The notes under the pieces are model-generated. The model did not search any database. It was not told the origin of the DNA and saw only the letters and a program-made list of their open reading frames with translations. Shown here piece after piece: positions 12,121 to 27,702 of a DNA stretch of 30,733 bases. The stretch is from a virus, in the IMG/VR virus record IMGVR_UViG_3300027141_000011, positions 1 to 30,733 of that record. The stretch is one strand, 5' to 3'. A program made the position numbers and the translations under genes. Within the stretch, counting starts at the first letter, position 1; each line of letters opens with the position of its first letter.

Positions 12121-12454
12121 AGGACAAAAGGAGTCGAAGAAGCACGAGGACCGACTAGCAAAAGCAGTAGGTGGACAGCGTACAGCTGCCAGCGGTGCAT
12201 TTTGGAGTCGTAAAGGTGATGTTCGGTCTAAAGACTTGTTAATAGAACACAAGTGGACTGGCAAAGCCACCGTAACCATTAAAGCTACGGTTCTAGAAAA
12301 GATTGTTACAGAAGCAATTCTTGACAGTCGTATGCCTGTCCTCGGTTTTAGTCTCAACAATGAAAATTATGTGATGCTAACTGAAGATGACTTTTTGGAA
12401 CTACGCCAGAGACTTCAGGAGTTAATTGAGTGCACGAAGACGTCGGACACGTAG
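12110..12454 (+). CDS. PD-(D/E)XK Holliday-junction resolvase-like nuclease
   Basis: 114 residues. An early basic segment KKHEDRLAKAVGG, then TAASGAFW and GDVRSKDLLIEHK give the E...D...ExK pattern of archaeal-type and phage Holliday-junction resolvases in the PD-(D/E)XK fold; the following TIKATVLEKI helix fits too. It would cut branched intermediates made by RecA. The start overlaps the end of RecA by 11 bases and its 3' end overlaps the WhiB-like gene by 25. A different PD-(D/E)XK DNA endonuclease is possible. A second, RuvC-type resolvase is encoded at 14098. Confidence 0.72.
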   Translation: MRSKGQKESKKHEDRLAKAVGGQRTAASGAFWSRKGDVRSKDLLIEHKWTGKATVTIKATVLEKIVTEAILDSRMPVLGFSLNNENYVMLTEDDFLELRQRLQELIECTKTSDT

Positions 12455-12747
12455 AGGGCTGGAGACATAAAGCCAAGTGTCGCGGTATGGATACAGAGTT
12501 GTGGTACCCACCAAGAGATAAAGCAAAGTATAAAAAGATAGCAACCGTATCTAAAGCAGTGTGTTTTGGTAAGGATGGTTTGCCAGAGTGCCCTGTGCGT
12601 AAAGAGTGTTTACTATATTCAGAGTCAATGGATGAGCAGCACGGTATCTGGGGTGGCATGTCACATCGCGAACGCAACGCGTTAAAACGTAAAGCTAAAA
12701 AAGAAGGAAAGACCCTCGAGGAGTGGGTGCTTGACTTTGATATGTGA
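12430..12747 (+). CDS. WhiB-family iron-sulfur transcription factor
   Basis: 105 residues. Four candidate cluster ligands are seen: C17, C45, C54 and C60, with ECPVRKEC, then the family GIWGG turn (72-76) and a basic C-terminal helix (RERNALKRKAKK). WhiB proteins bind a [4Fe-4S] cluster and sigma factor to steer transcription and occur only in Actinobacteria and their phages, so this gene points to the host. C45 to C54 is C-x8-C rather than the usual C-x2-C. GTG 12430, with AGGAG 8 nt upstream, is needed to include C17. It may redirect host sigma-dependent transcription. Confidence 0.87.
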   Translation: MHEDVGHVEGWRHKAKCRGMDTELWYPPRDKAKYKKIATVSKAVCFGKDGLPECPVRKECLLYSESMDEQHGIWGGMSHRERNALKRKAKKEGKTLEEWVLDFDM

Positions 12748-13617: not shown

Positions 13618-14101
13618 GATAGTGGCAACAGGCATCAGCGAGATTGTCCTACAACAGTTAGAGTCCCAAGGGCTGCCATTAAAACGCTCAATGAACATCC
13701 AACCACCAGAGTTTCCAGCGGATATTACCTTGGTTGATGACCAAGAACTAATGGTTATGGCTGGTAAATATATGGAGAACTTAAACTTCCTACGTACTCA
13801 GGTAGCCTGCGCTAACCTTGCGGAGTTAGAAGCCACTAACTCCTATGACCTTGAGGTTGCTAAAGGGTTGCTAATGAAGACCACTGGTAAGAGCACAGAA
13901 AAAGCCGTCATGTTAAAGGCAGCAGTCGCTACTGATGAGTACATTATGGTCTTGGATAAAGCAAAGAACTATGCCCACGCATATAGAAAACTATTAGAGA
14001 CTGCGTTAGAAAACTTAGAGCGTTACTACTCATTAACTAGTCGTGAGCTCACCCGACGCACGTCTAGCAGTAGGATGATGGGAAATAGATTTGTACCATG
14101 A
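13610..14101 (+). CDS. unknown helical protein in the recombination operon
   Basis: 163 residues, largely helical. An acidic DDQELMVMAGKYMENL segment leads to a long helical region and a C-terminal block rich in Arg/Thr/Ser (SRELTRRTSSSRM). It overlaps the Cas4-like gene by eight bases and the RuvC-like gene by four, so it is translated with both. Size, helical character and basic tail would suit a recombination mediator or nuclease partner, but this is inferred from context only; no family motif is recognised. Confidence 0.6.
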   Translation: MSEIVATGISEIVLQQLESQGLPLKRSMNIQPPEFPADITLVDDQELMVMAGKYMENLNFLRTQVACANLAELEATNSYDLEVAKGLLMKTTGKSTEKAVMLKAAVATDEYIMVLDKAKNYAHAYRKLLETALENLERYYSLTSRELTRRTSSSRMMGNRFVP

Positions 14102-14661
14102 CCATTAAAAATTTTGATGGAGGTCTTGACCTCGCAGGCAGTAGCCCTGTTTCAGTGTATGTAGGCATAGACCAGTCATATAGTGGATTTGCTATAACCT
14201 TGCTAGGAAAGGACAACGCTTTTTTTACTCAGGTGTTTAAATCTGATTTACGAGGCATAGACCGTTTGGTAGAGATTAGAGCATTTCTTAGTAATGTCCT
14301 ATTTGATACGCCTATTAAAATTTTAGATGTAGCCATGGAAGACTACGCTTACGCAGGCTCAGGCAGGGTGTTCCACTTAGGTGAACTAGGTGGGATGGTT
14401 AAGCTTGAGTGTCATGCTTCTGGTCACTACCCCTTACTGGTACCACCTACCAGCTTAAAAAAGTATGTAACAGGTAAGGGGACTGGTATACAAAAGAACC
14501 AGATGCTACTTCACATTTATAAGAAGTGGGGTGTAGAATTCACGGACGACAACGCCGCAGATTCCTACTCCCTAGCTAGGGTGGTTTCTGGCAAGCATGA
14601 GTTAGCGTATGAAAAAGATGTGTACGATAAACTACAAGACGTCAAACATAGGGAACGATAA
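14098..14661 (+). CDS. RuvC-like Holliday-junction resolvase
   Basis: 187-residue RNase H-fold nuclease that would cut four-way junctions symmetrically. Acidic catalytic residues match RuvC: D25 in VGIDQS, E81 in AMEDYA, and D151/D155 in DDNAADSYSLA. A VPPTSLKKYVTGKG segment corresponds to the conserved RuvC region P..vK....G.G.a.K.qv. The first about 17 residues extend beyond the usual family start. It overlaps the previous gene by four bases and shares one base with the HslV-like gene that follows. With RecA and the Cas4-like nuclease it completes a recombination pathway. Confidence 0.88.
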   Translation: MTIKNFDGGLDLAGSSPVSVYVGIDQSYSGFAITLLGKDNAFFTQVFKSDLRGIDRLVEIRAFLSNVLFDTPIKILDVAMEDYAYAGSGRVFHLGELGGMVKLECHASGHYPLLVPPTSLKKYVTGKGTGIQKNQMLLHIYKKWGVEFTDDNAADSYSLARVVSGKHELAYEKDVYDKLQDVKHRER

Positions 14662-15212
14662 TGACAACACTAGTTGGTGTTCAATACGAAGATAAATGCG
14701 TATTAGCTGCAGACAGTCAGGTGACCGACCCTGATGGGCGTATTCAAAAGCATTACCAGATGGTAAAAATTTCCCAACGTGGAGACCTTTTAATTGCTGG
14801 TTCTGGTGAGGTTAACCCTTGCGATATTGCCCAGCACATTTGGAATCCTCCAAAGTTAACAGCAGCGCACAAAAAAGACGTATATCATTTTGCTATTACT
14901 AAAGTAGTACCTTCTTTACGTAAATGTTTAAAAGATAACGGCTATAACTTTGAAGAAGAGCGCGATAAAAACACAACCGAGCAGCGTTTCCATTTTCTCA
15001 TTGCCGTTGGCGGTGAGATTTTTGATATTAGTGATGACCTTTCGGTAACTCGTTCTCAAGACGGGTTATACGCCGTAGGAAATGGCTCAGCATATGCTTT
15101 GGGGGCGCTTCATGCTGGTGCTAACGCCGTAGAGGCATTAGAAATTGCAGAAAAACTAGACGCTTATACCTCAGGACCATTTCAAGTAGTAAAACAAGAA
15201 AAGGTAGGCTGA
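14661..15212 (+). CDS. HslV/20S proteasome beta-like peptidase
   Basis: 183-residue Ntn-hydrolase of the HslV/proteasome-beta type, a self-compartmentalising threonine peptidase. After Met removal the N-terminus is Thr-Thr, as in HslV; LAADSQ supplies the Asp17 equivalent and MVKIS the Lys33 equivalent. LLIAGSGE and the late GNGSAYALGA match the family core, with Asn in GNG where HslV has Ser in GSG. Length matches HslV (about 175). No HslU or other unfoldase is in the window, so it would need a host ATPase or act on small peptides. It begins at the last base of the RuvC-like gene (TAATG). Capsid maturation protease is an alternative role. Confidence 0.82.
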   Translation: MTTLVGVQYEDKCVLAADSQVTDPDGRIQKHYQMVKISQRGDLLIAGSGEVNPCDIAQHIWNPPKLTAAHKKDVYHFAITKVVPSLRKCLKDNGYNFEEERDKNTTEQRFHFLIAVGGEIFDISDDLSVTRSQDGLYAVGNGSAYALGALHAGANAVEALEIAEKLDAYTSGPFQVVKQEKVG

Positions 15213-15379
15213 TGCCAAAATATGATTTTACCTGTATTAACTGTGACCGTACAGTTGAGATGCACTTTGCTTTTGATGCTACACAACGTCCTTCTTGCGA
15301 AGGTTGCGGAGAGTTTATGATTAAATCTTACACACCACCATCAGTGCAGTTTAAAGGCGGAGGGTGGGGCGGACAATGA
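15212..15379 (+). CDS. FmdB-type zinc-ribbon protein
   Basis: 55 residues beginning MPKYDFTCINC with a second pair CEGCG, the FmdB-family zinc-ribbon pattern (Mpxy-f-C--C...CP-CG), then a Gly-rich tail KGGGWGGQ. These tiny proteins are common in actinobacteria and actinophages and are often called putative regulators without proof. It begins in the base after the peptidase stop region (TGATG) and its stop overlaps the next start (ATGA). Confidence 0.75.
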   Translation: MPKYDFTCINCDRTVEMHFAFDATQRPSCEGCGEFMIKSYTPPSVQFKGGGWGGQ

Positions 15380-15543
15380 AAAAATATCCAACTATGTACG
15401 ATTTAGGGCTTAAGTTACCAGTTTTAGTTGCTGATGATGATTTTATTGAGCATTTACATGAGATGGGTTTTAGCAAAACTATTGATATTGGGGACTTAGC
15501 CCTTGAGTGGGTTGATTGGGTTAAGGAGAACGTAAATGAGTAA
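15376..15543 (+). CDS. small acidic protein, unknown
   Basis: 55 residues, acidic, beginning MKKYPTMYDLGLK and containing a DDDFIEHLHEMGF stretch and a final helix (LALEWVDWVKEN). Both ends overlap neighbours (ATGA at the start, ATGAGTAA at the end), which supports translation. No family is recognised. Its position three genes after the peptidase makes it a possible adaptor, without direct evidence. Confidence 0.6.
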   Translation: MKKYPTMYDLGLKLPVLVADDDFIEHLHEMGFSKTIDIGDLALEWVDWVKENVNE

Positions 15544-15781
15544 GACGCAAGACAAGCGAGCAGCACGTGTTGCCGAACAACAAGAGTTTATTAAGAAACG
15601 CCGCATAGCTCAGTTAGCCGTGTTTGAATCTAACTTTAACGCGGGTTTACAGTTTTATAATGACAACAAAGACAAGATGTCAGAAGAAGAAATTGCCCTT
15701 ATTGATAAAGAGATTGAAGACAACCTCGCCCTAATCCATAATATAAAAAAGGAGTGGAGTTTAGATGGCCAAGAGTCATAA
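15536..15781 (+). CDS. small charged helical protein, unknown
   Basis: 81 residues, highly charged and almost entirely helical, with Lys/Arg/Gln-rich sequence (QDKRAARVAEQQEFIKKRR) then an acidic half (EEEIALIDKEIED). Probably a coiled coil. It overlaps both neighbours. No family assignment. Confidence 0.6.
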   Translation: MSKTQDKRAARVAEQQEFIKKRRIAQLAVFESNFNAGLQFYNDNKDKMSEEEIALIDKEIEDNLALIHNIKKEWSLDGQES

Positions 15782-15998
15782 GAAAAAAGACTTGCTAGAA
15801 GACGGTTGGATGACCTCTGATGAGTTTGTAGACCGCCTTGCCCTTGGACTTAGGGAGTATCTAAGCTCTAATTGGGGCCATACTCACGGTCAGCTACACC
15901 ATCCAGAAGACTTAGCAACTACTGCTTCAGTTTATATGGAAGTTGCTTATAGAGTTATTGCAGACTTTAGCGGTTGTCGCCATGGCAAAGGGAATTAG
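15765..15998 (+). CDS. small protein, unknown
   Basis: 77 residues. A basic start (MAKSHKKKD) is followed by an acidic helix and a His-rich centre (WGHTHGQLHHPED) that could bind metal, then a hydrophobic helix VYMEVAYRVIADF and CRHGKGN. It starts inside the end of the preceding gene, with an AAGGAG about 10 nt upstream. Function unknown. Confidence 0.58.
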   Translation: MAKSHKKKDLLEDGWMTSDEFVDRLALGLREYLSSNWGHTHGQLHHPEDLATTASVYMEVAYRVIADFSGCRHGKGN

Positions 15999-16203
15999 AG
16001 AACTAAAGCCTGATTACACAGGCACTATGGAGTATGCGGACCAGATTTGCCATGAATGCCCTACCTGTGAGTCTAGTCTGTGGAATATAAAGGCTAGTTT
16101 TCAGGATTACGAGTTAGCCCAGTATTTGTTGGATATGGAGTGTTCTGTTTGCGGCAGCTATGCCAAGGCTCCCACGCCTTTAGACAGACCAACTTTAATT
16201 TAG
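15982..16203 (+). CDS. small zinc-finger protein with two CxxC-type pairs
   Basis: 73 residues from the ATG at 15982, which overlaps the previous gene. Cysteines in CHECPTC and later CSVCG form a probable four-cysteine zinc site around a helical segment (SFQDYELAQYLLD). An in-frame upstream ATG at 15943 would overlap more deeply and is less likely. Last gene of this cluster before a 52-base gap. Function unknown. Confidence 0.62.
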   Translation: MAKGIRELKPDYTGTMEYADQICHECPTCESSLWNIKASFQDYELAQYLLDMECSVCGSYAKAPTPLDRPTLI

Positions 16204-16255: not shown

Positions 16256-16534
16256 ATGTCCGAACCAAAAGATGAACAAATCCTACGCGTTGGCGCAGGA
16301 AGCAACCCACAAGCTGTAGCATCAGCTATTGCCCACAGCATTTATGAAACTCGCACTTGTAAAATTCGTGCAGTTGGCGCTGGCGCAGTAAACCAAGCCG
16401 TTAAGGCAATCGCTATTGCCCGTGGATACACAGCTCCACGAGGTCTAGACCTTCTTTGCATCCCTGGCTTCTCAAGCATTGACAGCCATGACGGTCAGAT
16501 TTCTGCAATTGTTTTTGATGTAAAGGCAAGTTAA
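16256..16534 (+). CDS. spoVS: SpoVS-family (Alba-like) protein
   Basis: 92 residues matching stage V sporulation protein S across nearly its whole length: ILRVGAGSNPQAVASAIAHS, RAVGAGAVNQAVKAIAIARG and LDLLCIPGF are close to the bacterial consensus. SpoVS has an Alba-like fold and is a putative nucleic-acid binder affecting sporulation and septation in Bacillus; its biochemical role is unsettled. No other sporulation gene is near. The 52 bases upstream hold no clear promoter. Carriage by a phage suggests nucleoid or RNA binding, by inference. Confidence 0.88.
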   Translation: MSEPKDEQILRVGAGSNPQAVASAIAHSIYETRTCKIRAVGAGAVNQAVKAIAIARGYTAPRGLDLLCIPGFSSIDSHDGQISAIVFDVKAS

Positions 16535-17073: not shown

Positions 17074-17622
17074 ATGGCTTCAGGCTACCCAATGGGCTCA
17101 CCACATGAAAGAAATCAAGAATGGTCGATTCCCCATCAACCAAAGCAAATACCAGCAGGAACTCAACAGCTTATTAAGGGTTATCAACTAGCTGCAGAAC
17201 GTTCCGTAGACCCATTTAAACTGCTACACAACATGCTAGACCCGTGGACATTTGGGTTTGAGCGCCACCTAGAGTTCTTCGAGAACCTAGAAGACGTTCG
17301 TATTAAGTCCAACTACCCCCCATACAACATCAAGACCCTACCCGATAATAAGGCGCAAATTGAGCTTGCTATTGCAGGGTTTAAGAAGGATGATGTTAAG
17401 ATTACCTATAAAGAAAACATCATCACAGTCGAAGGCAACCAAGGCGAAGACGATGCGGAGTACTCATATAAGGGTATTGCAGCACGTAACTTTGTACAGA
17501 AGTTTGCAGTTGCAGACGACGTAATTGTAGGAGACGCAAAACTATCTGATGGTTTCTTAATCATTGAGCTAGAGCGCCTCATTCCCGAAGGCAAAAAAGA
17601 AAAAACAATCAAGATTAAATAA
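17074..17622 (+). CDS. hsp20: IbpA-like small heat-shock protein (Hsp20)
   Basis: 182-residue alpha-crystallin-domain chaperone that would hold unfolding proteins in a refoldable state. The core spans about residues 80-175. YPPYNIKTL, ELAIAGFKKDDV, YKGIAARNF and LERLIPEGKK match IbpA/IbpB closely, and FGFERHLEFFE matches the IbpA N-terminal motif. The first about 55 residues are an extra Pro/Gln-rich extension. It is a single-gene unit between two terminators with its own strong ribosome site, implying separate and probably high expression. Hsp20 genes are known in cyanophages, where a role in particle assembly or stress is supposed. Confidence 0.92.
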   Translation: MASGYPMGSPHERNQEWSIPHQPKQIPAGTQQLIKGYQLAAERSVDPFKLLHNMLDPWTFGFERHLEFFENLEDVRIKSNYPPYNIKTLPDNKAQIELAIAGFKKDDVKITYKENIITVEGNQGEDDAEYSYKGIAARNFVQKFAVADDVIVGDAKLSDGFLIIELERLIPEGKKEKTIKIK

Positions 17623-22578: not shown

Positions 22579-23511
22579 ATGAACTTCTATGACGCGCTGG
22601 TGAAGCAGGCTAAGCCAGTCACTATAGAGCCCTCCGAGACTTCCTACTTCAGCACCCCAGGTGCTGGGTTGGACCCCCGTCTGTTTAGAGACGGAAAGAT
22701 TATTCCCCATATCCGTTCTTTAATTTATAGAATCCTTCTTGAGCATTTAAGAGCCCGCTACAGCAACCCAGAATCATACGTACATGTGTGGTTAGCTGGT
22801 TCTGCAGTTTCTTATCAATGGACAGCAGCAAGAAAACCAGCAGACCTTGATTGCCTAATTGGAGTTAACTACCTAGCGTTTCGTCAGGCTAATCCAAAGT
22901 ATAAAGGTCTAAGTGACCGTGAGATTTCCCAGATGTTCAACGAGGGTTTTAATACGGAATTGCACCCAGTTACAGGAAACTTCCTGGATATATTTGAATT
23001 GACGTTCTATGTTAATGTGCAGTCTGACATACGTAAAATAAAGCCATACGCAGCATACTCACTGACAAATGATGATTGGACTGTGCAACCTGAAGTTAGG
23101 GCTGTTCCTAATAATAAACAATGGAACCGTCGTGTAGCTCAGGATAAATCCTTAGCTGTAGATATTTTATCTAGATACTCAGATGCTTTATCTAATATAG
23201 GTTCTGCTTCTACTGATGTGGCTAGACGCAATGCTGAAGCTGCATTAAAGCTAGCTGTAGAGCAGGGAGCTGCTTTATTTGAAGACATCCATCAAGGAAG
23301 AAAACACGCGTTTAGCCCTAGTGGACAGGGTTATGGAGATGTATATAATTATCGCTGGCAGTCAGGAAAAGCAAGCGGAGTCGTACAAGCACTAAAAGAA
23401 CTAAAAGAAATTTCTAAAAAAACAAAACAAGATTTTGAAGCACAGACTTATGGTATGGAACTACCAACAACTAGCACTCTAATAAGGAGAGCAGCTACAC
23501 ACTACAACTGA
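22579..23511 (+). CDS. nucleotidyltransferase-fold protein (Pol beta superfamily)
   Basis: 310 residues. WLAGSAVSYQW (Gly74-Ser75) followed by ADLDCLIGV (Asp89, Asp91) is the GS...D-x-D signature of Pol-beta-type nucleotidyltransferases, and a later FLDIFELTFYV could carry the third carboxylate. A helical C-terminal half contains DVLS-like and Ala-rich segments. These enzymes transfer NMP groups to RNA, proteins, antibiotics or nucleotides; minimal versions also act as toxins. Which substrate is used is not evident. It opens the cluster that ends in ribonucleotide reductase and has a leaderless-type start. Confidence 0.68.
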   Translation: MNFYDALVKQAKPVTIEPSETSYFSTPGAGLDPRLFRDGKIIPHIRSLIYRILLEHLRARYSNPESYVHVWLAGSAVSYQWTAARKPADLDCLIGVNYLAFRQANPKYKGLSDREISQMFNEGFNTELHPVTGNFLDIFELTFYVNVQSDIRKIKPYAAYSLTNDDWTVQPEVRAVPNNKQWNRRVAQDKSLAVDILSRYSDALSNIGSASTDVARRNAEAALKLAVEQGAALFEDIHQGRKHAFSPSGQGYGDVYNYRWQSGKASGVVQALKELKEISKKTKQDFEAQTYGMELPTTSTLIRRAATHYN

Positions 23512-23517
23512 TAGGGT
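23509..23517 (+). promoter_or_regulatory. extended -10 TGATAGGGT, probable leaderless promoter
   Basis: The TGA stop of the nucleotidyltransferase gene supplies the TGn, then TAGGGT (23512-23517), 6 nt and the GTG at 23524. Identical over nine bases to the site at 12745-12753. Confidence 0.6.
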
Positions 23518-23523
23518 ATATAC

Positions 23524-23985
23524 GTGGCAATATTAGTTTTTCTAGATGGGGTATTAAAAGATACTAGGCTTGGTGGCCCCATTCAAGACGGCATGTCTTT
23601 ATATAGAACACTTAAAGAAAAACACCGTGTTTTAATCCTTTGTGATGATGTTACAAAGGGCGACCATTGGCTTCGCCAACAACGAATTAACAATATTGAC
23701 GACGTTGTAGATAAAACCAACGTCCCCGCACTTGGTGACAACGCAGACTTTAGACTGGTGGAGTGGATTAAAAGCCAAGGCCCAGTAGAGTTAGTTATTA
23801 CTTCTGACCCCGATTTGACTGTTAAGTTATTGTCTGTTGGTATTACTACCTTAGTATTTATGTCCCCTGTCTACATTAGGGAAGAGTTCAGACCCGATAG
23901 CCGAAAGGGTGTCAAGTCTTGGCAAAAGATTGTAGAAGAGATAGACTCACAGAACGCCGCATATAAGGAGGACCCACGGATATGA
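23524..23985 (+). CDS. HAD-like phosphatase-fold protein
   Basis: 153 residues. ILVFLDGVLKD at the N-terminus resembles HAD motif I, with Asp8 as nucleophile but Val10 where the second Asp of DxD usually stands. A CDDVTKGDHWLR segment and VITSDPDLT fit later HAD motifs. The gene begins with GTG directly after a TAGGGT box. In this position, beside RNR-related genes, a nucleotide-handling role is likely, but loss of the second Asp leaves activity in doubt. Medium confidence in the fold. Confidence 0.55.
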   Translation: MAILVFLDGVLKDTRLGGPIQDGMSLYRTLKEKHRVLILCDDVTKGDHWLRQQRINNIDDVVDKTNVPALGDNADFRLVEWIKSQGPVELVITSDPDLTVKLLSVGITTLVFMSPVYIREEFRPDSRKGVKSWQKIVEEIDSQNAAYKEDPRI

Positions 23986-24092
23986 CCGATACACCAAAAT
24001 GTCCACAAGGATGTGACTCCAAAACTTTGGAGTATGTTGGAGACAAAGCCTGGTTATGTTCCAAGTGTGGGCATACCTGGGGCCGTGAATGA
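23982..24092 (+). CDS. 36-residue zinc-ribbon protein
   Basis: Four cysteines in CPQGC and CSKCG with GHTWG at the end give a minimal zinc ribbon (C-x3-C...C-x2-C). Overlaps the preceding and following genes by four bases each (ATGA), so it is very probably translated. Function unknown. Confidence 0.65.
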   Translation: MTDTPKCPQGCDSKTLEYVGDKAWLCSKCGHTWGRE

Positions 24093-25555
24093 AGATTATT
24101 TATCTAGGTGCTGAGGTTCCTTCAAATAGAGTAATCCTTGAGGAGACTACCGCCAATCATGTGGGAGTAAGCTACTACCGCCTGGTGCAACGCGGCCTAC
24201 CAAAAACCAAAGAGTATCTATTAGAAAACTACTTTAATAAGGATTTCTATATTTATGTATCCCCTGGTTTACCCAAGACTCTGAAGCTGGGCCCAGCTGA
24301 GCTGGAAGAGTTTGCAGCTGGTTACGAGCACTTTGTGGCTGTAAATATGGACAGGCTTTCCACCTTTTATGAGATTAACGGCTATGGGATTGACCCAGAG
24401 TTCATAGACCAACAACGTAAAGACGTGTGGTCAGAGGTCCCACCCGCTAAGTTCGTGCCTGTATGGCAGCCACAGACAGGCTACGACGGCCTAAAAAACC
24501 TAGTTGAGTATTACCTAGATGTTGCTATCCCAGGCGACGCAATTGAGTCAGAGACCCAGTTGGCAAGCGCTACACGTATACATAGCAAGCGTCAGGGAAC
24601 CCGCTGGCATGCGCTAGGATGCGCCAAGCCAGATAACCTGCGTCAAGTTCCGTTTGATTCCGCAAGCACCTTGTCGTGGTTATCACCCATGATGCATGGT
24701 GAGACTATTATTTGGGATGGCACTAGGCTTGTCCGCTACCCCAAGAAGATGAAAGACCAAGCACGTTCTAGATACAAGGCTACCTATGAAAAGGCTGGCT
24801 TAGATATAGATAAGATTCTTGAGGATGACCCGCAAGAAGTTGCTAAGTTAGCCGTGTGGTCTTACGAACAGTTTGAAGTAAGGATGAATATGATGAGCGG
24901 TAATCCAGAAGACCCAATGTTATATGATAACAGTGATGGGAGTGAAGTGGAGCAAAGTGGGGAAAGTGCTCCTGCCGTATATGATAATAGGGGGGTAGAT
25001 ATGCGGAAACTTGAGCCGCGAAATCCCGCCGAAATGGGCAATCTTCCAGTCTTTGGATTCAATACAAAGACCGAAATTGACGAGGATGGCACCATCAAAG
25101 ATGTCACCGCAGTTAGTTCTCAACAGACCTCACTTCGTGCATGCGACACATGTTTTGTAGCCGCTAACTGCCCTGCTTTCAAGCCTCAATCTGCCTGTGC
25201 TTTTAAGTTACCAATCGAAGTAAAGACTAAAGACCAACTCAAGAGTTTAATTAATGCAATCATCGAAATGCAGGGACAACGTGTTGCTTTCATGCGTTTT
25301 GCTGAAGAAATGAACGGTGGATACGCTGACCCTAACGTTTCTCAGGAGATAGACCGCCTATTTAAACTGATTAAAACTACTAAAGAATTGGACGACTCAC
25401 GTGAGTTTATTCGCATGACTGTAGAGCGACAAGGCTCTGCTGGTGTGCTAAGTTCTATCTTTGGAGACAAGGCTCAAGCCCTAAAAGAGTTACCAAATGG
25501 TGGGTTTACCGAAGCCCAAACTACGGAAATAATCAAGGGCGCAATAGAAGAATAG
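24089..25555 (+). CDS. 488-residue protein of unknown function with a C-terminal cysteine cluster
   Basis: Largest unassigned protein in the window. The N-terminal part starts MKIIYLGAEVPSNR like a Rossmann-type or TIM-like strand, with a soluble mixed alpha/beta region to about residue 280. A disordered acidic linker follows (about 270-330). Then comes a cluster CDTCFVAANCPAF...SACAF (C-x2-C-x5-C-x7-C), apt for a zinc or iron-sulfur site, and a helical end. It overlaps the zinc-ribbon gene and lies 113 bases before the ribonucleotide reductase. Possible RNR partner or DNA-binding factor; no family is recognised. Confidence 0.6.
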   Translation: MKIIYLGAEVPSNRVILEETTANHVGVSYYRLVQRGLPKTKEYLLENYFNKDFYIYVSPGLPKTLKLGPAELEEFAAGYEHFVAVNMDRLSTFYEINGYGIDPEFIDQQRKDVWSEVPPAKFVPVWQPQTGYDGLKNLVEYYLDVAIPGDAIESETQLASATRIHSKRQGTRWHALGCAKPDNLRQVPFDSASTLSWLSPMMHGETIIWDGTRLVRYPKKMKDQARSRYKATYEKAGLDIDKILEDDPQEVAKLAVWSYEQFEVRMNMMSGNPEDPMLYDNSDGSEVEQSGESAPAVYDNRGVDMRKLEPRNPAEMGNLPVFGFNTKTEIDEDGTIKDVTAVSSQQTSLRACDTCFVAANCPAFKPQSACAFKLPIEVKTKDQLKSLINAIIEMQGQRVAFMRFAEEMNGGYADPNVSQEIDRLFKLIKTTKELDDSREFIRMTVERQGSAGVLSSIFGDKAQALKELPNGGFTEAQTTEIIKGAIEE

Positions 25556-25668: not shown

Positions 25669-27702
25669 ATGGCATTTACTTTTCGCCTAGCAGAAGAATT
25701 TTTAAAGGACTACCGCGAGAAGAAAGTGCCTTGGGGATACCAAGATGCCGCTGGTAACTCAGTTGGCGAAATTACCTTTTTAAGAACCTACTCCCGCTTA
25801 AAAGAAAATGGGGAAAAGGAAACTTGGACCGACGTTTGCCAACGCGTAATCGAGGGCATGTATTCAATCCAGAAAGACCACTGTAAGTCTCAGCGTTTAC
25901 CTTGGAATGACTCCAGGGCTCAGGCTTCGGCTAAGGAAGCGTTTGACCGTTTGTTTAATTTAAAGTGGACTCCACCAGGCCGAGGTCTGTGGGTTATGGG
26001 CACCCCGATTGTCAATGAGCTCAAGAACTCTGCAGCACTGCAGAACTGTGCTTTTGTCTCTACTTCTAGCATGTCTAAATTAGACCCTGCCAAGCCGTTT
26101 GCTTTTCTAATGGAAGCATCAATGCTGGGCGTAGGTGTAGGCTTTGACGACAAGGGCGCGGACAAAGATTTCACAATCTACGAGCCTAAGTTGCCAGAAG
26201 TAACTATCCAGATTCCAGATACCCGTGAGGGCTGGGTTGAGTCATTAAGCATGCTTATTAACTCCTATTTAAAACCAGAACAGCCTGTCTATGTATTTGA
26301 TTACTCCCTAATCCGTCCTGCTGGCGTTCCCATCAAAACCTTTGGAGGCACGGCCGCGGGCCACGAGCCGCTGGAGAAGCTGCACAATCACGTCCGCTCT
26401 ATCTTTAATAAGAAAAGGGCCAATTCTAAATTAACAAGGGTAGATATTGCCGATTTAGGTAATTTAATCGGTGTGTGCGTTGTCTCTGGCAACGTCCGCC
26501 GCTCAGCCGAGCTACTCATGGGTAGATTAGATGACCAAACCTTTTTAAATTTAAAGAACCCTGCCAAGTTCCCAGAGCGCAACTCATACGACAGCTCAGC
26601 TCCTGGTTGGGCCTGGATGTCTAACAACTCTGTTGAGGTCTCAGTCGGTTCTAATTTAGAACACATTGTTGAGGGTATTGCCCTGAACGGTGAGCCTGGT
26701 GTTATCTGGATGGATGTTACTCGTCAGTATGGTCGCCTTATTGACCCAATCAATAATAAAGACCATCGAGCCGCTGGTTACAACCCATGCGCGGAACAGT
26801 CTTTGGAATCATTTGAGTGTTGCACTCTGGTTGAAACCTACCTCAACCGCCATGACTCTATAGAAGATTACAAGCGCACATTAAAGTTTGCTTACCTTTA
26901 CGCGAAGACCGTCACATTGCTACCTACCCACTGGGAAGAAACTAACGCAATCATGCAACGCAATCGTCGCATTGGAACTTCTATGTCTGGTGTAGCCAAC
27001 TTTGCAGACCGCGTAGGGCTACCAACTCTTCGTGTGTGGATGGACGAGGGATATGCAGTTATCCAAAACTACGACCGCACATACTCCGAGTGGTTAGGTA
27101 TCCGCGAATCTATTAAGACTACGACAGTCAAGCCATCAGGAACAGTATCTATCCTTGCTGGTGAATCTCCTGGGGTGCATTGGACTCCTGGTGGTGAGTA
27201 TTTCCTTCGTGCAATCCGCTTTGGAAACGATGACCCTATGCTTCCTCTCTTTAAGGCGTCAGGTTATAAAGTAGAAAAAGCTTCGGAATCTCCTAAGACT
27301 ACTAGCGTGGTGTTCTTCCCTATTAAGTCCTCTGCAAAAAGGTCGGAAAAGGATGTCTCTATTTACGAAAAGATGTCTCTCGCAGCGATGGCACAGCGTT
27401 ATTGGTCAGACAACAGCGTTAGCGTTACAGTATCATTTAATGCAAATACTGAAAAAGACGCCGTAGGAACAGTGCTACATATGTTTGATGGGCAACTCAA
27501 AACCGTTTCTTTCTTACCTATGGGGAACGAGACTTACCCACAGATGCCATACACACAGATAACTAAAGAAGAATACGAAAAATCTACTATGAAGTTACTG
27601 CCTATCGACTTTACTGATGTCTATGCAGGAATGGCAGCCGATGCAATCGGTGAGAAATACTGCTCAACGGACTTCTGCGAAGTGCCTATAAAAGATAATT
27701 AA
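25669..27702 (+). CDS. nrdJ: class II (adenosylcobalamin-dependent) ribonucleotide reductase
   Basis: 677 residues, related to the monomeric ribonucleoside-triphosphate reductase of Lactobacillus leichmannii (739 residues). It would convert ribonucleotides to deoxyribonucleotides using a B12-derived thiyl radical, without oxygen or a second subunit. Key residues are present: Cys127 in QNCAFVS, NPCAEQ with Asn372, Cys374 (radical) and Glu376, then Cys384/385 as redox partner, KPSGTVS at the substrate site, and a C-terminal C665-x4-C670 redox pair. SDS-type ribosome site AGAGGAG is 6 nt upstream. It follows an unknown 488-residue gene and ends at a strong terminator. The phage depends on host cobalamin. 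Confidence 0.93.
   Translation: MAFTFRLAEEFLKDYREKKVPWGYQDAAGNSVGEITFLRTYSRLKENGEKETWTDVCQRVIEGMYSIQKDHCKSQRLPWNDSRAQASAKEAFDRLFNLKWTPPGRGLWVMGTPIVNELKNSAALQNCAFVSTSSMSKLDPAKPFAFLMEASMLGVGVGFDDKGADKDFTIYEPKLPEVTIQIPDTREGWVESLSMLINSYLKPEQPVYVFDYSLIRPAGVPIKTFGGTAAGHEPLEKLHNHVRSIFNKKRANSKLTRVDIADLGNLIGVCVVSGNVRRSAELLMGRLDDQTFLNLKNPAKFPERNSYDSSAPGWAWMSNNSVEVSVGSNLEHIVEGIALNGEPGVIWMDVTRQYGRLIDPINNKDHRAAGYNPCAEQSLESFECCTLVETYLNRHDSIEDYKRTLKFAYLYAKTVTLLPTHWEETNAIMQRNRRIGTSMSGVANFADRVGLPTLRVWMDEGYAVIQNYDRTYSEWLGIRESIKTTTVKPSGTVSILAGESPGVHWTPGGEYFLRAIRFGNDDPMLPLFKASGYKVEKASESPKTTSVVFFPIKSSAKRSEKDVSIYEKMSLAAMAQRYWSDNSVSVTVSFNANTEKDAVGTVLHMFDGQLKTVSFLPMGNETYPQMPYTQITKEEYEKSTMKLLPIDFTDVYAGMAADAIGEKYCSTDFCEVPIKDN

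Follow-up and report, generated by a model that had tools for sequence, protein, structure and literature searches.

A proteasome-like peptidase gene in a viral genome fragment

We analysed a 30,733-nucleotide stretch of viral DNA (hereafter the window), which is a 30.7-kb fragment rather than a full genome and which gave no match in a nucleotide search of GenBank phages. Its forward strand carries an intact open reading frame of 183 amino acids, found exactly where a preliminary description of this DNA had placed a peptidase gene; the protein starts with MTTLVGVQYEDKCVLAADSQ. The gene and its neighbours are as follows.

12430 to 12747, + strand: WhiB-like gene, which points to an actinobacterial host
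14098 to 14661, + strand: RuvC-like resolvase (phrog_159, E = 5e-26), with a 1-bp overlap with the peptidase gene (TAATG)
14661 to 15212, + strand: proteasome-like Ntn-hydrolase (PHROG 1040), 183 aa, recognised from the open reading frame, PHROG, PDB sequence, AlphaFold2, Foldseek and alignment
15212 to 15379, + strand: FmdB-like zinc ribbon (phrog_1076; Zn_ribbon_8 below cut-off), with a 1-bp overlap at the 3' end of the peptidase gene (TGATG)
15364 to 16203, + strand: four tiny open reading frames with no assigned function (open reading frame list, PHROG, neighbourhoods)
16256 to 16534, + strand: SpoVS-like gene (Pfam E = 1.4e-28)

The peptidase matched PHROG 1040, "peptidase HslV family", over residues 1-180 (E = 1e-31). 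On the Pfam Proteasome model it scored 22.0 bits, just below the 22.4-bit cut-off; it did not reach the HslV equivalog scores (25.7 versus 137 bits and 24.4 versus 157.75 bits) and remained far below the cut-off of the archaeal-beta model. Of the preliminary label, an HslV/proteasome-like enzyme, the assignment to the threonine peptidases of this superfamily stands, whereas a strict HslV identity does not, given these scores (24-26 versus 137-158 bits) and a fold and loop nearer to BPH, the betaproteobacterial proteasome homologue. Between the window peptidase and its three nearest relatives dN/dS was about 0.05-0.13, and among close relatives it was mostly 0.02-0.13, with one near-identical pair as the exception; these low values show purifying selection on the gene. 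Together with the PHROG 1040 match and the pLDDT of 92.9 reported below, they show that the reading frame is not a chance one.

WhiB is restricted to actinobacteria and serves as an actinophage marker (PMC10202952, PMC6802176). Because a WhiB gene is present and the head genes are nearest to those of Streptomyces phage BRock, the host is probably actinobacterial. Elsewhere in the window we found an HSP20-family small heat-shock protein (PHROG 432) at 17074-17622, about 2 kb 3' of the peptidase, and a queuine/archaeosine tRNA-ribosyltransferase-like gene at 24089-25555 followed by a ribonucleotide reductase at 25669-27702, an order that is kept in several relatives (L036, L056, L084).

Active site and predicted fold

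Active-site conservation was counted over 80 distinct viral relatives of the peptidase, and the residues and loop concerned are listed here.

14664 to 14669, + strand: Thr1-Thr2 codons in the sequence, the mature N-terminus after Met removal; invariant, 80/80
14712 to 14714, + strand: Asp17 equivalent (residue 18); invariant, 80/80
14766 to 14768, + strand: Lys33 equivalent (residue 36), aligned with proteasome Lys33 and Td-BPH Lys37; invariant, 80/80
14805 to 14807, + strand: Gly47 equivalent (residue 49), oxyanion-hole position; invariant, 80/80
14937 to 14987, + strand: extended acidic loop after helix 2 (residues 93-109), equivalent to the BPH pore loop (alignment, AlphaFold2, comparison with PMC5777263)
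15081 to 15083, + strand: Asn141 in G-N-G, at the BPH Ser-139 position; a lineage marker (alignment, PMC5777263)

The Thr-Thr N-terminus and the Asp17 and Lys33 equivalents, described beforehand as retained, thus proved invariant across all 80 relatives. Methionine aminopeptidase removes Met before Thr, and by this specificity Thr1 of the window peptidase would be exposed after Met1 removal. The Ser-to-Asn change in the GSG motif, also pointed out beforehand, is real: Asn141 aligns with Ser-139 of BPH, which hydrogen-bonds Thr1 (PMC5777263). Ser occupies this position in 63 of the 80 relatives, Asn in 16 and Ala in one, and the 16 Asn bearers are the window's own lineage, that is, the RuvC-context members plus L084. 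The position tolerates change, since it is Cys in the aligned AAH sequences and Thr in ct2KA10. Because the alignment has Asn throughout the window's lineage, the swap reads as old and lineage-wide and not as a sign of decay; placed beside Thr1, Asn for Ser might lower activity in that lineage.

We modelled the peptidase with AlphaFold2, using 18 window and IMG/VR sequences as input. The model reached a pLDDT of 92.9 and a pTM of 0.89, and all four flanking helices (1-4) were predicted. Foldseek ranked BPH first (TM 0.68-0.74), then HslV and then 20S beta subunits, all with a probability of 1.00, so that the structural comparison with HslV and proteasome beta proposed in the preliminary description recovered the Ntn-hydrolase sandwich. 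The best PDB sequence match was also BPH (E = 8e-6). We conclude from alignment and model that the gene encodes a genuine, probably active proteasome-family protease.

Like the window peptidase, BPH (5OVS/5OVT/5OVU) has a long acidic pore loop and no known unfoldase, although the two share about 24% identity and the likeness is one of fold and loop only. In BPH the loop stands in for a regulator, and genome searches found no unfoldase; the enzyme reacted with epoxomicin at its active site, yet seemed to need an unknown cofactor or a special substrate (PMC5777263). HslV (ClpQ) shares the fold and catalytic triad with the window peptidase, but the latter differs in its long acid-rich loop after H2 and in having no HslU in the phage or the likely host phylum.

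Relatives and phylogenetic placement

Relatives of the peptidase are encoded by 119 or more GenBank phages and by at least 586 IMG/VR stretches, and the carriers include many lake and sediment viruses. Phage-borne proteasome homologues without an AAA+ partner, PPH and AAH, were described by Fuchs, Alva & Lupas in 2021 (PMC8665760), and HslV without HslU was noted in a 2020 jumbo-phage paper (PMC7823757). The central claim of the preliminary description, a phage peptidase without an unfoldase, is therefore not new: such homologues are already known from PHROG 1040, from the GenBank phages counted above and from the PMC8665760 survey. Like the window peptidase, PPH and AAH are phage-encoded, carry an N-terminal Thr without a propeptide, lack an AAA+ partner and have an accessory distribution (PMC8665760). 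PPH is described as about 140 residues long with helix 2 missing, whereas the window peptidase has 183 residues and predicted helices at both 51-60 and 74-92. AAH-type proteins share about 31% identity with it, with profile E values down to 7e-26 and an hhalign value of 99.6%, but the window peptidase is without their GFTSSFRMGQLL/GCG motifs and falls in a separate clade.

We placed the peptidase in a tree of 82 sequences, in which some branches are long and the deep order is unsure. The peptidase fell in a clade of 46 rows, all of them viral (support 100/98). Bacterial AAH, a label that here rests on host range, formed one clade that excluded it (100/99), and BPH grouped on long branches with HslV (97/83) and not with the window's clade. 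That clade also stood apart from PrcB, from HslV/BPH and from the short PPH-like phage group (SPN3US/BUCT/RpAliso). The nearest bacterial proteins found were AAH-type, from Streptomyces, Actinoplanes, rhizobia and some Bacillota. A profile search of 296 Actinomycetota and 398 Pseudomonadota genomes returned AAH-type or weak matches, none of which belonged to the viral clade, and a first genome-contig scan with the viral alignment gave one pattern match and no relative. The clade is well supported and, so far, virus-only, and may be a new subfamily, or CPH, the cyanobacterial proteasome homologue.

Two relatives deserve separate mention. An AAH-type homologue on a Sinorhizobium fredii plasmid (L109 4001-4546) lies in a nitrogen-fixation cluster, between nifQ and iron-sulphur/nifS genes. 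The annotated product of Moorella phage MTATph1 (L025 4941-5456) begins at the Asp17 region, without Thr1; its annotated start therefore seems to be an internal ATG, and the true start is probably upstream.

Candidate unfoldase partners

As the preliminary description had stated, the window holds no Clp/HslU-type ATPase: AAA_2 exceeded its cut-off in none of 30 phage records (the window and 29 others) and in all 14 control genomes. The search of fuller genomes for an AAA+ partner, suggested at the same time, was negative for the Clp/HslU type and positive for CobS/MoxR-type AAA+ ATPases (AAA_5), which exceeded the cut-off in 13 of the 30 records. Two relatives with 94%-identical peptidases encode such an ATPase about 18 kb from the peptidase; AAA_5 was below cut-off in the portal-context records G007, G020 and ct2KA10 and in WaterT. 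In one relative (G002; L210 2911-6284), a 488-aa CobS/MoxR-type ATPase precedes a 634-aa open reading frame that is a possible CobT/VWA-like partner of it, and this pair is widespread in these phages.

The HslU cut-off was reached by none of 119 Actinomycetota genomes, in which sub-threshold partial matches look like ClpX. With a likely actinobacterial host, this speaks against HslU as the host unfoldase that, on the earlier idea, the peptidase might hijack. HSP20 was considered as a partner chaperone and rejected: it was present in 12 of the 30 peptidase-bearing records, all of them in the window's lineage, and absent outside it.

Genomic contexts of the peptidase

We surveyed 100 viral loci, among which a few contigs were counted twice under two locus numbers. 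RuvC lay directly 5' of the peptidase in 22 loci, 48 peptidases were beside an endolysin, 24 were in a portal context and 6 were unclassified. In the 24 portal loci, none from the window's lineage, the peptidase immediately follows the portal gene and is itself directly followed by a conserved phrog_8200 gene; both branches of the clade's deepest split show this order (L019, L020 and ct2KA10, and the crown), down to 38-39% identity. The position directly after RuvC, highlighted beforehand, accordingly holds in the window's lineage and fails in the endolysin and portal contexts. In two portal-context loci, open reading frames of 1,600-1,900 aa directly follow the portal/peptidase block (L089 10988-16318, L013 5359-10656); the one in L089 is without a PHROG match, and Manuel gp10 occupies the same place.

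The order RuvC-peptidase-FmdB is confined to one lineage. In L084, which is syntenic with the window, 6.6 kb separate RuvC from the peptidase, which lies close to the TGT gene; the FmdB region there follows RuvC with no peptidase between. The four tiny genes are kept mainly inside the window's lineage and not alongside the peptidase elsewhere. Coupling to RuvC and the proposed role of the tiny genes as adaptors were therefore rejected: co-occurrence with 15212-16203, the survey recommended beforehand, was not conserved across the 100 loci, L084 has the gene in another place, and elsewhere its context is endolysin or portal. FmdB was likewise rejected as a partner: in other contexts it is encoded on the opposite strand or at a distance, and in L084 it stays with RuvC. 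Because the contexts vary, the peptidase has moved in L084 and HSP20 is limited to one lineage, no local gene is a conserved partner, and the RuvC/tiny-gene setting is best read as one lineage's insertion site.

Cultured relatives without the gene

Streptomyces phage BRock is 54% identical to the 95-kb relative G011 in terminase, 57% in portal and 70% in capsid, and it shares polymerase, RecA, RuvC, SpoVS and TGT with the window. Its SpoVS-like gene, also annotated "sporulation protein", lies 120 bp after RuvC, and the window's block of peptidase, FmdB and tiny genes fills exactly that place, with the SpoVS-like gene at 16256-16534 as its right edge. Streptomyces phage Manuel has the portal-giant open reading frame-capsid layout of the portal-context viruses, with portal about 43% and capsid 55-58% identical to theirs. 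A six-frame hmmsearch with four profiles, in which all controls were detected, found no proteasome-family open reading frame in BRock or Manuel. Since both lack it, the peptidase is accessory, and these relatives do not need it to assemble their heads.

RuvC-context and portal-context viruses alike have major capsid proteins of the family phrog_1357. This was rejected as a sign of head function, as BRock and Manuel have phrog_1357 without the peptidase. The family occurs in a contractile-tailed lineage with portal phrog_64 (G011 26556-27572) and in a Manuel-like lineage with portal phrog_104, in which no sheath gene was seen (G007 23442-24599). A capsid-protease context in relatives, which the preliminary description had named as evidence against its view, was thus found in position, after the portal in 24 loci; the presence expected of a prohead protease was not, the gene being absent from phages with the same head module. 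Because cultured relatives whose portals and capsids come from the same families do without it, a required role in capsid maturation is unlikely.

Alternative explanations

The place next to the portal gene suggested a head protease; lambda gpC, for instance, removes the scaffold and is encoded behind the portal gene. A morphogenesis or late protease with scaffold, lysis or portal-adjacent proteins as its targets would suit the 24 loci between portal and phrog_8200 on both sides of the deepest split and the 48 beside an endolysin. It would also suit the negative searches for Peptidase_S78 (26 IMG/VR records) and for a ClpP-type protease (13 of those). We consider it unlikely: Manuel and BRock have related portals and capsids without the gene, G011 keeps the order portal-scaffold-capsid with the peptidase far away, the capsid proteins begin near their fold with no long propeptide, and a capsid maturation protease distinct from the peptidase is present in Microbacterium phage WaterT. 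A broader version, in which a virus-specific proteasome branch works on the phage's own late proteins, associated with scaffold and portal in some viruses and with lysis in others, the RuvC-linked copy acting from a distance, strikes us as quite improbable; if true, this would make it the first phage assembly or late protease of the proteasome type. Rather unlikely, in our judgement, is a host-takeover protease that relies on host ClpX/ClpC, on Mpa/ARC or on a chaperone for the breakdown of defined host regulators or defence proteins. Such a role would suit a gene that is accessory in its distribution and lies beside WhiB/SpoVS-type regulators, and actinobacteria have ClpX-like ATPases, as the partial HslU-search matches indicate; however, no AAA+ docking feature was identifiable, HslU was not found in the 119 actinobacterial genomes, and neither the neighbouring tiny genes nor HSP20 accompany the gene elsewhere. 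HslU is, to our knowledge, the only partner of this peptidase group.

The phage's own CobS/MoxR-type ATPase as partner unfoldase would agree with its detection in 13 of 30 records, including the two with 94%-identical peptidases. It falls below cut-off in G007, G020, ct2KA10 and WaterT, however, its family phrog_249 is annotated "porphyrin biosynthesis", and at a distance of about 18 kb it shares no operon with the peptidase, which makes the pairing highly improbable. We also judge it very unlikely that the protein is a catalytically weakened or non-proteolytic descendant, such as a specific peptidase or a connectase-like ligase. The replacement by Asn of the Ser that hydrogen-bonds Thr1 would fit such a change, and connectase is a precedent for proteasome homologues turning into ligases (PMC8665760). 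Against this, all catalytic residues are invariant under strong purifying selection, the AlphaFold2 model has no two-helix connectase insertion, and the Asn141 position varies in AAH and ct2KA10.

Proposed role and implications

The explanation that we favour, and to which we give about an even chance, is that of an accessory, catalytically competent group I BPH-like threonine peptidase of actinobacteriophages, independent of an unfoldase and carried as optional cargo that aids infection. The fold, the intact catalytic residues, purifying selection, movement between genome modules and dispensability are all evident at the sequence level; the phage records searched contain no Clp/HslU-type partner, and close cultured relatives lack the gene. 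In this proposed scheme, host methionine aminopeptidase would remove Met1, the subunits would assemble into a self-compartmentalised double ring, and the long acidic loop would control entry. Like BPH, the ring would then cut unfolded, small or loosely folded proteins without an ATP-driven unfoldase of its own, and the net effect may be better infection, through removal of host or phage polypeptides or the reuse of amino acids. On this reading the peptidase is cargo added at several unrelated positions and not a core morphogenesis enzyme, and, because close cultured relatives do without it, it resembles an optional extra more than a novel kind of machine.

Judged by its sequence, the window peptidase is a known kind of phage gene with its own virus-only subfamily. 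If the favoured explanation is true, a stand-alone barrel protease would be carried by hundreds of freshwater phages. We know of no function so far for the cellular members of the family (BPH, AAH). The Streptomyces phages BRock and Manuel, without the gene, are natural controls, and the cultured microbacterial and arthrobacterial phages WaterT and Hum25, which carry a cousin gene, are systems for testing a role in infection; because closely related phages differ in whether they carry the gene, its function is testable.
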